64,000 nt of DNA from Bacteriovorax sp. MedPE-SWde. GTDB taxonomy: Bacteria > Bdellovibrionota > Bacteriovoracia > Bacteriovoracales > Bacteriovoracaceae. This document shows, piece after piece, positions 32,403 through 39,164 of this stretch. The DNA is taken from NCBI GenBank assembly GCA_001874305.1, contig MPCU01000005.1, forward strand, positions 1 to 64,000, given 5' to 3'. The notes under the pieces were generated by a model. That model saw nothing but the letters and a program-made list of their open reading frames with translations. It was not told the DNA's origin and did not search any database. Position 1 is the first letter of the stretch, and every line of letters starts with the position of its first letter. Made by a program: the position numbers and the translations under genes.

Positions 32403-33410
32403 ATGTTTAAGCTTAGGGCAGTAGAAAAGAACGATGTAAAAGACTTATTCACATTGAGTAAGTTATATACCTTTATCAATTTACCTTCTGACCTAAGTTT
32501 AATCGAAAAGAAAGTTGATGCTTCTTTAAGAAGCTTTGAAAAGCCTTCAAGTAACCTAGACGACAACCATTATATTTTTGTTCTCGAAGATATTGAACAC
32601 TCTAAAGTTGTTGGTTGTTCAATGATACATGCTCAGCATGGAACTGAAATTGAACCACATTTTTATTTGACAGTGTCACAAGAGAATAAATTCAGTAGCT
32701 CCATAAATACTGGATTTATACATGGTACATTAAAACTAGGATATAACACTGATGGACCGTCTGAAATCGGTGGTCTTATTCTAAACCCTGATTATCGAGG
32801 AAACTCAATGAAACTTGGTAAGCAATTATCTTTTGTGAGATTTTTGTATATGGGCATGAATCAGAATCAATTTAAAAAAGAAGTACATACTGAGCTTATG
32901 CCTCCATTTGATAAAGATGGTAAATCGCCACTATGGGAAGCGATTGGAAGAAGGTTCTTGAATATGGAATATCATGACGCTGATCTTCTCAGTAGAAAGA
33001 ACAAAGAATTTATTCTTAGCCTCTTTCCCTCAGATGTAATTTACGAAACACTACTTCCACTTGACGCAAGAAACGCAGTTGGCAAAGTTGGTGACGACAC
33101 TCTTCCTGTAAAGAATATGATTGAATCGATAGGATTCAAATATACCAATGAAGTAGATCCATTCGATGGTGGGCCACATTATCGTTGCCCATTAGTTGAT
33201 TTGAAACCAGTTAAGGGAATGAAGAATGTTAAACTAGATTTTTCACCTTTAGAGGATTTTAGCTGGTTCATCGTAGATAACACTACCGACAACTTTGAGG
33301 CTTTCTGTGTTCAAGGAAAACTCAGTGGTGAAACACTCATAATTAATCAAAAATTTAAAAGTCTTTTTAAAGACAATACACTTAAAACAAATACAATCAT
33401 CCCGTTGTAA
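32403..33410 (+). CDS. astA: Arginine N-succinyltransferase
   Basis: AstA transfers succinyl from succinyl-CoA to arginine, the first step of the AST pathway. The 335-residue length is typical. Diagnostic segments are PSEIGGLILNPDYRGNSMKL (the acyl-CoA-binding area), then NMEYHDADLLSRKNKEFILS, and VDPFDGGPHYRCP. The N-terminal MFKLRAVEKNDVKDLFTLSK is the usual start. It lies nine bases after the transaminase and is followed nine bases later by astD, showing an operon. Confidence 0.88.
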   Translation: MFKLRAVEKNDVKDLFTLSKLYTFINLPSDLSLIEKKVDASLRSFEKPSSNLDDNHYIFVLEDIEHSKVVGCSMIHAQHGTEIEPHFYLTVSQENKFSSSINTGFIHGTLKLGYNTDGPSEIGGLILNPDYRGNSMKLGKQLSFVRFLYMGMNQNQFKKEVHTELMPPFDKDGKSPLWEAIGRRFLNMEYHDADLLSRKNKEFILSLFPSDVIYETLLPLDARNAVGKVGDDTLPVKNMIESIGFKYTNEVDPFDGGPHYRCPLVDLKPVKGMKNVKLDFSPLEDFSWFIVDNTTDNFEAFCVQGKLSGETLIINQKFKSLFKDNTLKTNTIIPL

Positions 33411-33419
33411 GAGGCCTAT

Positions 33420-34931
33420 ATGTTTGAATTGAAAGGTAATTATTTTAATAACAAATATCATCAAACGCTCATAAGTGGACCAAGCGCTACAGAAGTCTTT
33501 GTAAAAAGGGAATGTCCTGCAAATACTGATTTAGAGTTATGGAACCTTCCTGTTGATTATTCAAATGTTGATGAAATCATTGATGCTTCAATTAAGGGAT
33601 TCAAAACTTGGAGAAATACAAGTGTTGAAGATCGAATTACTGTTCTAAAAAGATATCAAGAATCTCTAAAGAAAAACCAAGAGCGTATTGCAACAGCAAT
33701 TTCATTAGAAGTTGGGAAGCCATTCTGGGAAGCTAAAACTGAGGCTGCAGCACTTGTTAGTAAGGTTGATGTTACCATTAATGATTCTTTGCCACGTATT
33801 AATACAAAAGAATATAAAGATATACTGCCAAACACTAAAGGCAGTGTTCATTACAAGCCGGTTGGTCCTTGTTTTATTATTGGCCCATTTAACTTTCCTT
33901 GTCATCTCGCCAACGGCCAAATACTCAGTGCTTTAATTTCAGGTAATTCGATCATATTTAAGCCGTCTGAAAAAACATGCTATAGCTCTCAACTCATGTT
34001 TGAGTGTTTAGCTGAAGCTGGCTTCCCTGACGGCGTTGTGAATCTCATTCAAGGAGATGGAGAGACGGCCAGAAGAATTCTTAAAAGCAAAGATATAAAG
34101 GGTGTCTTCTTTACTGGTTCTAAGGAAGTAGGTTTAAAAATTATCGAAAGTACTTATTCAGATCTAAGTAAGCTAGTGTCACTTGAGCTTGGTGGTAAAA
34201 ACCCAGCAATAGTTGATCCTAGCTCGAATATGGACTTTGTACTTGAAGAGTTAATTAAGGGATCATTTCTTACAACAGGACAACGTTGTACATCTACTGC
34301 AATAGTTGCTGTACACGAATCAATTCATGAAGAGTTAATCTCTAAATTTCACGAAATGGCTAAAAAGATCATTGTTGATCATCCTATAGAGCATGAGAAT
34401 ACGCCATTTATGGGTCCTCTTGTTGATCAAAGATCTTTAGACCAATACCTTCTCTATATGGGTATGGCCAAGAGAGAAGGTATTCAAGAAGTTATGAGAG
34501 GTAAGCAACTTGATAAAAAGTTTCCTGGATATTATGTGAGTCCTTCAATTCATTTGGCTAAGTCATTCGATGAAAATAGTCATTTCCTTAGTTCAGAAAT
34601 ATTTGGACCAAATTGTACTTTCATTACTTACAACGATTTTGATGAAGCTATCGATATAGCTAATAAAACAGAGTATGGGCTAGCAGCTTCAGTATTTACA
34701 AAAGATCAATCACAATTTGATCACGCTGTTAAAAATATTGATGCAGGTTTAATTAATTTAAATAGGTCCACAGTTGGAGCAAGTGCAAAACTTCCATTTG
34801 GTGGTGTTAAGAATTCAGGAAATTATAAGCCTGCTGCAGTTTCCACTATTGATAGTTGTGTTTATCAGATGTCTAGTTTAGAAGTTCAAGAGACTGAGCC
34901 AAGTGGTTCAATCGTAGGTTTAATGGATTAA
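33420..34931 (+). CDS. astD: Succinylglutamate-semialdehyde dehydrogenase (aldehyde dehydrogenase)
   Basis: This 503-residue NAD-dependent aldehyde dehydrogenase has the catalytic C290 in TTGQRCTSTAIV, the general-base glutamate in SLELGGKNPAIVD, and the Rossmann motif FTGSKEVGLKII. Family naming follows AstD, which oxidises succinylglutamate semialdehyde. The ribosome site GAGG lies before the ATG. astB and astE, the other two steps of the pathway, are not present nearby. Confidence 0.85.
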   Translation: MFELKGNYFNNKYHQTLISGPSATEVFVKRECPANTDLELWNLPVDYSNVDEIIDASIKGFKTWRNTSVEDRITVLKRYQESLKKNQERIATAISLEVGKPFWEAKTEAAALVSKVDVTINDSLPRINTKEYKDILPNTKGSVHYKPVGPCFIIGPFNFPCHLANGQILSALISGNSIIFKPSEKTCYSSQLMFECLAEAGFPDGVVNLIQGDGETARRILKSKDIKGVFFTGSKEVGLKIIESTYSDLSKLVSLELGGKNPAIVDPSSNMDFVLEELIKGSFLTTGQRCTSTAIVAVHESIHEELISKFHEMAKKIIVDHPIEHENTPFMGPLVDQRSLDQYLLYMGMAKREGIQEVMRGKQLDKKFPGYYVSPSIHLAKSFDENSHFLSSEIFGPNCTFITYNDFDEAIDIANKTEYGLAASVFTKDQSQFDHAVKNIDAGLINLNRSTVGASAKLPFGGVKNSGNYKPAAVSTIDSCVYQMSSLEVQETEPSGSIVGLMD

Positions 34932-35438
34932 TCAGAACTGTTTTTTATTCACTAATACACCTGAGCGAGAAGACTTTGACATATCTTCTTTTAAAGTCTT
35001 TTCTTGCTCAATATCAACACCAGCATTTTTTAAATACAGACCCATAACTTCTCTTTGCTTTAGCTTTGATTGAACATATTTAAAACGTTCTTTCTCTTTT
35101 AAGATGAAGACCGATGTTTCAACAGCTTCTCCTGTTTTGCCTCTTGCTGTATCACCCATTCTAGATTTTTCATTAAAATGATTTATATATTCAATGACGG
35201 CTGCACCAGTGCTAACTGGCTCCACAGACTCGACCTCATCGGCTTCCGTTTTCTTAAATGGCAGAATCTTTGCGCCCTCTTCATCATCTGAAAAGTTTAG
35301 CTTCTCCCCACTTTCAAATTGATCGAGCATGTCTGTCAGCTCTAGTCTGTTGGAGCCACTTGACGATGCTGTTAACTCTGAGATTTCCTCTGGAGTTATG
35401 ATTCTTAAAATGTCGGCCAATAAAGATAATGCTGCCAT
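34932..35438 (-). CDS. Hypothetical acidic protein (168 aa)
   Basis: I do not recognise this gene. The 168 residues are soluble with no signal. The N-terminal helix (AALSLLADILRIITPEEISE) is followed by an acidic, low-complexity linker (residues 45-80), then a basic helical segment (ERFKYVQSKLKQREVMGLYL). The stop lies one base beyond that of astD, convergent. GGAAA lies before the ATG. Confidence 0.6.
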   Translation of the reverse strand: MAALSLLADILRIITPEEISELTASSSGSNRLELTDMLDQFESGEKLNFSDDEEGAKILPFKKTEADEVESVEPVSTGAAVIEYINHFNEKSRMGDTARGKTGEAVETSVFILKEKERFKYVQSKLKQREVMGLYLKNAGVDIEQEKTLKEDMSKSSRSGVLVNKKQF

Positions 35439-35602: not shown

Positions 35603-35677
35603 TGGGATGTGGCGCAGCGGTAGCGCAGTAGACTGTTAATCTATTGGTCCGGAGTTCGAATCTCCGCATCCCAGCCA
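35603..35677 (+). tRNA. tRNA-Asn (anticodon GTT)
   Basis: The 75-base cloverleaf has acceptor TGGGATG / CATCCCA, anticodon loop CTGTTAA, T-loop GTTCGAATC and an encoded CCA. It stands alone. About 35 bases further on, a weak hairpin atctc / gagat followed by TTTTT (35712-35731) may terminate it. Confidence 0.95.
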
Positions 35678-35764: not shown

Positions 35765-37192
35765 ATGATATTAAATATGAAGAAGCTAGATAAAATATTG
35801 AGTGATGAATTTCAAAGAGATGCCATAAAGTCTATGTCACTTTTTTACTCTGACACTATCTCTGAATATAGAAATGATGTTAATGAGGATTATGAAAATA
35901 CTCACCTATCAGCTAACTTTCAAAACTTCTTTAAAGGTGCCATTTATAACAACGGTCTTAATGAATTTAATTCAACTAATTGGTATTGGTTAAAACTAAT
36001 TGAACGTATTGTTCACTTAATCTATCTTCATGAAAACCTTGTTATAAATGATAGTGATTTCGAGTTATCTGAAAGTGAGGATGAGTTATTTAATTTTTGG
36101 CATGATAGCGACTATGCGAAATCGTTTCTTGAAATGATTAATGAAACCAAAGACCTTCTCGCGACTTCTAAATTTCATTTAAACTTACTTGAAGGACAAG
36201 TAATTGCATTCTTTGCGACTCAAATTGATGGCTCTGTTAAGTTTGATGAAGTGTCTTTTTATAACACTCCAGAGATTGGGGACGGTTCTGATAGAGTTTT
36301 TAACGCCAAAACACATAGTTACTTTAACTTAGAGTCTAAAGACCCTGATCGTTTTATTTTTACAATATCTAATAAAGATGGAAGTAATCTAGTTATAAAC
36401 GGAGAGCAGGTAAATTTTAGTGATAATGCTCTACAACTATCAAGTGGTTGCTTTCTACACTTAAGCTCTTCTATTCTTGATAAAGATAGAGAAAACTTCT
36501 TTCAAAGAATTGAAGAAGCGCTTCAAATTATAAATAACGCCAACCCTAAACTATTTACTACCTTTACTAACTTTACCAAGGCCATCGTACCAATTAATGA
36601 AAAAGGTATTGTTAGTTATTCAATGCAAAACCTCCCTGGATTCTCAAGTATAAATATGTACGAGAGAGACTTTCTAGACCTACTAGATGATCTTCTCCAT
36701 GAAAACGGGCATCACTACATGAATGCATTTTTAAATGTAGAAGAGCTCATTTCAGACGATGATGAGAAAATCTATTATAGTCCTTGGAGAAGGGCCCTTA
36801 GACCAGTTCGAGGTATTTATCATGCTTACTTTACTTTCTATTGGGCATTTATACTGTACAAGTCTCTATATGTTGCAAATAAGAGCGACAGCTTAGCAGG
36901 CTTTCAGCCTAGTAAACAACAAACTATTAAAATTCTATCAAGAACTCTTGAAGAATATCATATGATAAATTTCTGCTGGCCGGATTTATTAAGTGCTCAT
37001 CAGGCAGGTAAGATCTCAGATGAGGGTCTTGAGGTAATCAGCTTCATTAACGATGAGCTTAGTACGATCTCAGAAGGTCTAATTTCGGATATAGAGGCTG
37101 AACTCAAGCATTCTTCAATAATGGACTATGAAAAAATACTTGAGCTTAAAAAGCACTTAAAGGATACGAGAGAGCACTATACAGAAAGTTGA
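35765..37192 (+). CDS. HExxH-type protein resembling alpha-ketoglutarate-dependent peptide beta-hydroxylases
   Basis: The 475 residues have no signal or membrane anchor. Residues 310-320 read LLHENGHHYMN, an HExxH metal motif (H312, E313, H316). At 338-353 comes YYSPWRRALRPVRGIYH. This HExxH followed by a Y-x-PWR...RP...G...H block is the pattern I associate with the HEXXH-motif domain family now annotated as peptide beta-hydroxylases in RiPP (ribosomal peptide) pathways; H353 may be a further ligand. No RiPP precursor or transporter is visible nearby. The ATG lacks a clear Shine-Dalgarno. The end overlaps the convergent YgfZ-TPR gene by 16 bases. Family call is by motif only. Confidence 0.55.
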   Translation: MILNMKKLDKILSDEFQRDAIKSMSLFYSDTISEYRNDVNEDYENTHLSANFQNFFKGAIYNNGLNEFNSTNWYWLKLIERIVHLIYLHENLVINDSDFELSESEDELFNFWHDSDYAKSFLEMINETKDLLATSKFHLNLLEGQVIAFFATQIDGSVKFDEVSFYNTPEIGDGSDRVFNAKTHSYFNLESKDPDRFIFTISNKDGSNLVINGEQVNFSDNALQLSSGCFLHLSSSILDKDRENFFQRIEEALQIINNANPKLFTTFTNFTKAIVPINEKGIVSYSMQNLPGFSSINMYERDFLDLLDDLLHENGHHYMNAFLNVEELISDDDEKIYYSPWRRALRPVRGIYHAYFTFYWAFILYKSLYVANKSDSLAGFQPSKQQTIKILSRTLEEYHMINFCWPDLLSAHQAGKISDEGLEVISFINDELSTISEGLISDIEAELKHSSIMDYEKILELKKHLKDTREHYTES

Positions 37193-38691
37193 TTTAGACG
37201 AGATTGCATTTCATTAGCAGGCATCATATCGCCCTGCGCAGATGCCACCTCAATTCCTTTTTTGTACACATCTAATGCTTCATCTATTTTACCTATTTTT
37301 TCACAACTCTTTCCAAGAAGAGCGTATGCCGTTGAATATTTTTTATTTTCTTCGAGAACTATCTTCAAGTGCTTATAGGCTTCATCATATTCATGACGGT
37401 GAAATAGAATATCTGCCATACCATAATTGGCAATAGCGTCTCTATCATCCATTTCAATAACTTGTTTAAACATTGACTCTCTTCTAGCAAGCTCTGCCGC
37501 TTTCTTCTCTTCTTCTTCAGCTATCTTCTTTTTAACTTGAGCTTCTTCTCCAAGCTTTTGAAAGCTAGCTACTGTAGCAAGGGATTTTTCATCTTCTGCT
37601 TTCTCAATTTCACCAATCTTCATATAGAACAAAGATTTGTTTGTATGGGCCATTACTGAGTTCTTATCGACTTTTAATAGTTCATCCATTGCCTCAATGG
37701 CATCTTTAAATCTATCGAGTTGTCCTAGGATTGCCCCTTTTGATTCATACGCATCTGCATAGCCAGGATCAAGCTGGATTGCAAGGTCCAACAATTTCAG
37801 AGCAGACTCTTCTTCTTTTTTATGAAACTCTTCAATGGCCTTATGAAAAAGGTCTTCAGCCTTTTGAGTTTTATCACTACTTACTAGAGGAATATTTCTA
37901 ACAGTTAACTCTATATCGTCACTTTTAAGTTTCTTTCCTTCAACTTGTAGATCTCTAGAAACTGAAGCCAAAGTATAATATTTATTTTCATAGCTAAAGC
38001 TACCCCACACTTTCTTTATAGAGTTATCTATAAATTTGGACTCTTTAGCTGATTCTAACAATACTGGATATTTTGCAGCTCCCCTACGGGACTCAATTTT
38101 TGATGCTGTCTCTTGTCCAAGAAAACAACCCTTTTTATAATCAACAGCAAGCTTATTTAAACTAGTTTCATTGACTAGCTCGTCTCCGTTAAGAGTCAAC
38201 CCAAGTTCTGGCCATGCTGTTGATAGAATAGCAAACCTATATGTCTCTTTATCAATTTCAGGGTACTGTACTTCCTTTGGATCAATAATGATGAAAGCAT
38301 CTTGATCGGCCCACTTTGTCTTAAAGTGAACCTCACTAATATTGTCTTCTACACTGGGTCCAACTACAACTGTAGCATTTGACTCTGTAACAAGAACTTC
38401 AACATCTTCCATAATAATAAATTTATTCAATTCACTAATCGTATTTTCACAAAGAGCGTTTTCAATAATTATATAAAAATCACCATTATGTTTTCCGACA
38501 TAAAAGAAAGAGTAGATTCGTCCCGATCTATCAAGCCTACAACTAAGCTGCGCTTCCCTATCTGAAATTTTCGATAGGTCATTTGTAAATTGTCTTTGAA
38601 GATATTCTGCAGAGTCACTACCTATAATTTTTAATACACTATAGGTAGTTAAAGGAGCTGAGATTGCTCCATAAAGAAGTTCATTTATCAT
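37177..38691 (-). CDS. YgfZ/GcvT-like folate-binding domain fused to TPR repeats
   Basis: Residues 1-270 match the YgfZ/CAF17 family, which helps maintain iron-sulphur proteins in a folate-dependent way. The diagnostic KGCFLGQE lies at 187-194, preceded by LAVDYK and followed by TASKIESRRGAA. Residues about 280-500 are TPR-like: LKLLDLAIQLDPGYADAYES, and AYKHLKIVLEENKKYSTAYA, with a Glu/Lys coiled segment between (about 380-405). Standalone YgfZ is about 300 residues, so this is a fusion. The gene follows an IscA-type gene on the same strand by 9 bases. Confidence 0.8.
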   Translation of the reverse strand: MINELLYGAISAPLTTYSVLKIIGSDSAEYLQRQFTNDLSKISDREAQLSCRLDRSGRIYSFFYVGKHNGDFYIIIENALCENTISELNKFIIMEDVEVLVTESNATVVVGPSVEDNISEVHFKTKWADQDAFIIIDPKEVQYPEIDKETYRFAILSTAWPELGLTLNGDELVNETSLNKLAVDYKKGCFLGQETASKIESRRGAAKYPVLLESAKESKFIDNSIKKVWGSFSYENKYYTLASVSRDLQVEGKKLKSDDIELTVRNIPLVSSDKTQKAEDLFHKAIEEFHKKEEESALKLLDLAIQLDPGYADAYESKGAILGQLDRFKDAIEAMDELLKVDKNSVMAHTNKSLFYMKIGEIEKAEDEKSLATVASFQKLGEEAQVKKKIAEEEEKKAAELARRESMFKQVIEMDDRDAIANYGMADILFHRHEYDEAYKHLKIVLEENKKYSTAYALLGKSCEKIGKIDEALDVYKKGIEVASAQGDMMPANEMQSRLNQLSV

Positions 38692-38700
38692 TGGTTAACC

Positions 38701-39036
38701 TTAAACAGAGAAAGATTCACCACATCCACAAGTATTCTGTGCATTTGGGTTAGAGAATACGAAGCCTTTACCATTAAGACCATCTTTAAAGTCTAACTCG
38801 ACACCTCTTAGATAAATAGATGATTTTGGATCGATAAAGATCTTGATTGTGTTAAACATTAGAACATTGTCTTTTTCTAGTTTTTCACCAAAATCTATTT
38901 TATACGATAATCCTGAGCATCCGCCACCGATTACACCGAGCCTGACACCAATTAGCTCTCTGTCTTTATCTTCAGATTCAAATATCTGATTAATATGCTC
39001 GATTGCTTTGTCTGTTATAGTCAGTAATGATTCCAT
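38701..39036 (-). CDS. IscA/ErpA-type iron-sulphur carrier
   Basis: The ATG at 39036 has GAGG seven bases upstream; the in-frame ATG at 39054 adds six residues and has no site. The 111 residues show the three conserved cysteines of A-type carriers: GGGCSGLSYKID and the C-terminal CGCGESF. These proteins hold and deliver Fe-S clusters to apoenzymes. Placement directly before the YgfZ-TPR gene supports a shared Fe-S maturation role. ErpA, IscA and SufA cannot be separated by eye. Confidence 0.9.
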   Translation of the reverse strand: MESLLTITDKAIEHINQIFESEDKDRELIGVRLGVIGGGCSGLSYKIDFGEKLEKDNVLMFNTIKIFIDPKSSIYLRGVELDFKDGLNGKGFVFSNPNAQNTCGCGESFSV

Positions 39037-39164
39037 TATTTTCCTCTTTTCCATTATTATAGCATGCGTAAATCACACTATAAATCAGGATGTTACCTAC
39101 TTTTTTGCCTAGTTTAACAAGCTTATTTCTATCAATGATATACTCAAAATTAAGGATAGTTTCA

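Follow-up and report, generated by a model that had tools for sequence, protein, structure and literature searches.

An orphan enzyme of the aKG-HExxH family held in a single chromosomal slot in Bacteriovoracaceae

Introduction

Characterised aKG-HExxH enzymes beta-hydroxylate His, Asp, Gln, Phe and Pro residues of peptides, and two of them, PflC and PosC, carry out oxidative backbone cleavage (PMC12636437, PMC13060819). The characterised members that our literature search turned up belong to dedicated RiPP pathways. Here we describe a family member encoded outside such a pathway. Its gene lies in a 64,000-nucleotide stretch of contig MPCU01000005.1 of Bacteriovorax sp. MedPE-SWde, the whole of which we call the window, and was originally predicted to encode a HEXXH-domain peptide beta-hydroxylase without a recognisable RiPP cluster. 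Its features are as follows.

35765-37192, + strand: aKG-HExxH-type oxygenase ORF, 475 aa (matches TIGR04267 and, in sequence as in fold, ChlH 8s5f and SjiH 22nu/22ob)
36509-36841, + strand: TIGR04267 catalytic core, residues 249-359 (profile match)
36698-36712, + strand: HExxH motif H312-E313-N314-G315-H316 (both His and the Glu kept in 24 of 25 sequences, syntenic or related)
36782-36823, + strand: PWRRALRPVRGIYH block, residues 340-353, with R342, R346, P347, G350 and the candidate third ligand H353

Sequence and fold place the protein in the aKG-HExxH family

The reading frame runs uninterrupted from an ATG to a stop codon, and a genome search found the gene in single copy. Translation may instead begin at Met5 (35777), because alignments of the relatives start there; neither start is preceded by a clear ribosome-binding site. 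Both motifs lie at the positions originally predicted: LLHENGHHYMN spans residues 310-320 and contributes H312, E313 and H316, and YYSPWRRALRPVRGIYH spans residues 337-353 and carries the PWR/RP/G/H block down to H353.

The assignment to the HEXXH-domain peptide beta-hydroxylases was borne out by profile and structure searches alike. TIGR04267, the NCBIfam model for aKG-HExxH-type peptide beta-hydroxylases (also IPR026337), matched residues 249-359 with a score of 67.1 bits, where the curated cut-off is 40 bits (domain E 1.9e-18; 117 of 177 profile positions covered). Among solved structures, phmmer returned ChlH (8s5f, 1.5e-7) and SjiH (22nu, 3.3e-5), and a profile built from eight orthologs improved these matches to 6.2e-12 and 1.2e-6. 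Scores of this size for TIGR04267 and ChlH argue that the motifs are not a chance occurrence. A weak match to the PAS kinase 1ll8 (0.0056) was set aside as noise, as it had an E value of 0.48 under the ortholog profile.

An AlphaFold2 model, built from only eight sequences, was of moderate quality (mean pLDDT 66.6, pTM 0.68), its weak stretches being residues 280-289 and 331-346. When this moderate-confidence model was searched with Foldseek, it matched 8s5f (E 1.1e-5, probability 1.00, target TM 0.59) and 22ob (E 1.4e-5, probability 1.00); chains of these two entries were the only ones at E <= 0.001, and everything else had E >= 0.76. At the model's moderate confidence, the protein has a ChlH-type fold. 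ChlH and SjiH, the two members of the family with solved structures, are thus the only structures matched significantly in the profile search as well as in the fold search, and the alignment shows that the PWRxxLRP of the block is common to both. With the HExxH motif and the PWRxxxRP...GxxH block both present, membership of the aKG-HExxH family is well supported at the level of sequence.

Conservation points to the same region. Each of H312, E313, N314, H316, P340, R342, R346, P347, G350 and H353 is found in 24 of the 25 related sequences aligned, and mean identity to the window protein across 22 orthologs is 58% for the core (residues 241-380) vs 27% for residues 1-240. H353 is kept in the orthologs and in ChlH, but SjiH has a Gln at this position, so that a role as third iron ligand is plausible rather than proven. 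Homology to ChlH suggests that H312 and H316 would coordinate Fe(II), most likely with H353 completing the set, and that alpha-ketoglutarate would bind to the iron, probably aided by the conserved R342 and/or R346 of PWRxxxRP, which might alternatively order the site. Activation of O2 would then yield an oxidising iron species that hydroxylates a side-chain C-H of a polypeptide, and the fast-evolving N-terminal half (residues 1-240) may aid substrate recognition.

The gene occupies one slot and appears to be vertically inherited

The original prediction described flanks of tRNA-Asn, ast and Fe-S genes, and we found these to be present:

32403-33410: AstA-like gene
33420-34931: AstD-like gene
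34932-35438, - strand: conserved 168-aa protein of unassigned function, the divergent neighbour, present with or without the enzyme
35603-35677, + strand: tRNA-Asn(GTT), a fixed slot marker
37177-38691, - strand: YgfZ/CAF17-like domain fused to TPR repeats, the convergent neighbour
38701-39054: ErpA/IscA-like gene

A protein search of 95 Bacteriovoracaceae genomes found the enzyme in 58 (43 of 61 good assemblies); the tallies below use 57, with G013 left out as a weak, distant match. In a survey of 369 genomes from the phylum, only Bacteriovoracaceae had the long form, and other families gave a few weak, short matches. Searches against phages returned no match, and those against plasmids returned weak Xenorhabdus and Photobacterium matches only. 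The nearest named relatives are Bacteriovorax records, the best being DB6_IX (64%); apparent stops in its ortholog (G004) are probably sequencing errors, because the adjacent YgfZ-TPR gene is broken too.

The surroundings of the gene are shared as well. Exactly the window's neighbours, namely the 168-aa gene on one side and YgfZ-TPR followed by ErpA-like, FHA, PduO and IcmF genes on the other, were found at 15 of 25 related loci, and most of the remainder depart from this order through a gene insertion, the lack of a neighbour or the end of the contig. In every slot scanned, tRNA-Asn adjoins the enzyme gene, at most ~1.5 kb upstream. Where the enzyme is absent, tRNA-Asn still lies between both flanking genes, either cleanly (L098, L099, L100) or with extra genes (L097, L103). 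When pairwise distances are compared, the enzyme tree correlates with the trees of IcmF (rho 0.75) and YgfZ-TPR (rho 0.69), values reached by 0 of 999 permutations in each case, and with the AstA-like tree (rho 0.46, reached by 3 of 999). Lineages without the enzyme are mostly nested inside enzyme-bearing ones.

Because the gene keeps one slot between tRNA-Asn and YgfZ-TPR and its tree agrees with those of flanking genes, the simplest account is that it is old, vertically inherited in Bacteriovoracaceae and lost more than once. Recent insertion at the tRNA gene is contradicted by the shared synteny, by the persistence of tRNA-Asn with and without the enzyme and by the agreement of the trees. 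A tie to loss of the AstD-like gene also failed: several enzyme-free lineages lack AstD-like too, but so do the enzyme-bearing loci L048, L050 and L051, and G060 and G065 retain it. YgfZ-TPR is present in 52 of 57 enzyme-bearing vs 23 of 38 enzyme-free genomes, a correlation that we do not read as functional because relatedness is uncontrolled in these counts.

Two neighbours merit description in their own right. The YgfZ/CAF17-like-TPR fusion is conserved throughout Bacteriovoracaceae. The 168-aa protein has conserved ends, with LTPEEI close to the N-terminus and a C-terminal GVLVNKKQF, and a variable middle. We considered it as a substrate and rejected it, since it persists in enzyme-free lineages with no obvious residue change.

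Short paralogs sit in operons of a different kind

Other Bacteriovoracaceae carry short aKG-HExxH paralogs (~260-290 aa) with an HExxH...RP...H arrangement, most of them above the TIGR04267 cut-off (L088-L094). Unlike the window enzyme they are short, patchily distributed and operon-borne, and none occurs in the window's own genome. Their operons encode a family-5 peptide-binding protein and a sensor histidine kinase, often with a sigma-54 response regulator and a small secreted protein:

L088 5554-11316 (-) and L094 5402-11057 (-): SESRVEIL operon, in two genomes of one genus
L089 5114-11158, L090 4871-10955, L091 4006-10105, L092 3082-9132 and L093 4689-11514: related short-paralog operons

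The SESRVEIL operons hold genes for a secreted protein with SESRVEIL-like repeats, an epimerase-like protein, the short aKG-HExxH protein, the family-5 peptide-binding protein and the histidine kinase. L089-L092 have genes for a sigma-54 response regulator, a secreted protein of ~155-163 aa, the peptide-binding protein, the short aKG-HExxH protein and the histidine kinase; L093 deviates in having an MFS gene and a gene for an 82-aa product. The first operon gene of G007 and G075 encodes the secreted protein, whose SESRVEIL-like repeats number six or seven, and the gene order makes it plausible that this protein, one of the candidate substrates encoded in the short-paralog operons, is a multi-site substrate of the short paralog. 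It was dismissed as a substrate of the orphan enzyme, as the window's own genome has no homolog.

Weighing the alternatives

Beside the enzyme gene we found no radical SAM gene, MNIO, ABC transporter or obvious precursor; in the window and its relatives the flanks are instead tRNA-Asn, ast-like, YgfZ-TPR, ErpA, FHA, PduO and IcmF genes. The view that the enzyme lies outside a RiPP cluster therefore holds, and more strongly than the window by itself could reveal, because orthologs family-wide share the orphan position. The enzyme could nevertheless tailor the precursor of a distant cluster in trans. The window's genome encodes a bufferin-type cluster on another contig (G000:C6, L087 8087-9673, -), in which its one MNIO stands by a DUF2282 BufA2-like peptide and a DUF2063 protein; aKG-HExxH enzymes work beside MNIOs in other systems (PMC13060819); and the genome has five SPASM-like radical SAM matches, three above cut-off. 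MNIO presence, however, does not track the enzyme: a match was found in 27 and missing in 30 of the 57 enzyme-bearing genomes, and found in 10 and missing in 28 of the 38 enzyme-free ones (Fisher p 0.05; 0.10 in good assemblies). We thus rejected the bufferin cluster as a partner, and with the enzyme's single syntenic slot lying away from any MNIO-type cluster, RiPP tailoring in trans seems unlikely.

Two other readings question the chemistry itself. HExxH is the classic zinc protease motif, and PflC, although an aKG-HExxH enzyme, hydrolyses when its leader peptide is absent (PMC12636437), which could suggest a zincin-like metallopeptidase that hydrolyses peptides. Yet no Pfam family matched the protein up to E = 1, no peptidase family was significant in NCBIfam or Foldseek, the significant Foldseek matches belong to the oxygenase family only, and the PWRxxxRP block is common to oxygenase structures; we regard this reading as highly improbable. 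The protein might also be mainly structural or binding, with catalysis secondary or lost, as the orthologs of genus g23 bring to mind. These occupy the same slot with the frame kept:

L052 8969-10447 and L104 8289-9725: g23 orthologs, motifs lost

Both g23 sequences that we read lack HExxH, PWR/RP and H353. They come from two species and share 294 of 476 identical residues, with open frames, a dN of 0.26 and saturated dS; amino-acid change this slow against saturated synonymous change suggests selection for a non-catalytic role in g23. Since an intact protein persists in g23 although the motif residues are gone, the window protein may have such a role as well. However, the catalytic residues persist in every other syntenic ortholog, and conservation is highest in the core, so a mainly structural role for the window protein is very unlikely.

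Discussion

We consider it probable that the window protein is an aKG/Fe hydroxylase of the aKG-HExxH fold that modifies, in trans, either a cellular protein or a distant peptide. Family membership, the fold match, motif conservation, synteny, tree agreement and repeated absence, as observed here, fit this reading, under which the enzyme would use iron and alpha-ketoglutarate, hydroxylate its target and find that target away from its own locus. An old, vertically inherited single gene outside a RiPP cluster points to a substrate encoded elsewhere, most likely a conserved protein, cellular or secreted, or else a peptide. It is possible, though we advance the idea only tentatively, that this is the first "housekeeping" branch of the family, an inherited hydroxylase of a conserved Bacteriovoracaceae protein with a role like that of ribosomal and translation-factor oxygenases rather than in RiPP tailoring.

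A single-copy, vertically inherited, cluster-free branch suggests that aKG-HExxH chemistry may also serve ordinary protein modification. Its occurrence as a lineage-wide orphan in cultivable predatory bacteria offers a tractable route to the target, and g23, which has lost the catalytic residues and kept the protein, provides a natural control for the search.

Neither the fold nor the chemistry is novel; what is new is that the orphan context is lineage-wide and the gene not a stray. ChlH, the HExxH domain of ChlB (8s5f), has the HExxH, PWRxxLRP and GxxH blocks and the fold in common with the window protein, at a structural-alignment identity of 14%, but it forms part of a fusion with a radical SAM enzyme, and its substrate is the cyclophane peptide of its own cluster (PMC12636437), whereas the window protein is stand-alone and has no precursor. 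SjiH (22nu, 22ob) likewise shares HExxH, a PWRKDLRP block and a significant fold match; unlike the window protein it was deposited as a radical SAM core domain-containing protein, and it differs at the H353 position. PflC, PosC, PesO and BpmH/BipH are also aKG-HExxH enzymes by their authors' assignment, and each resides in a RiPP cluster with a precursor and partner enzymes, whereas the window enzyme stands apart from such a cluster.
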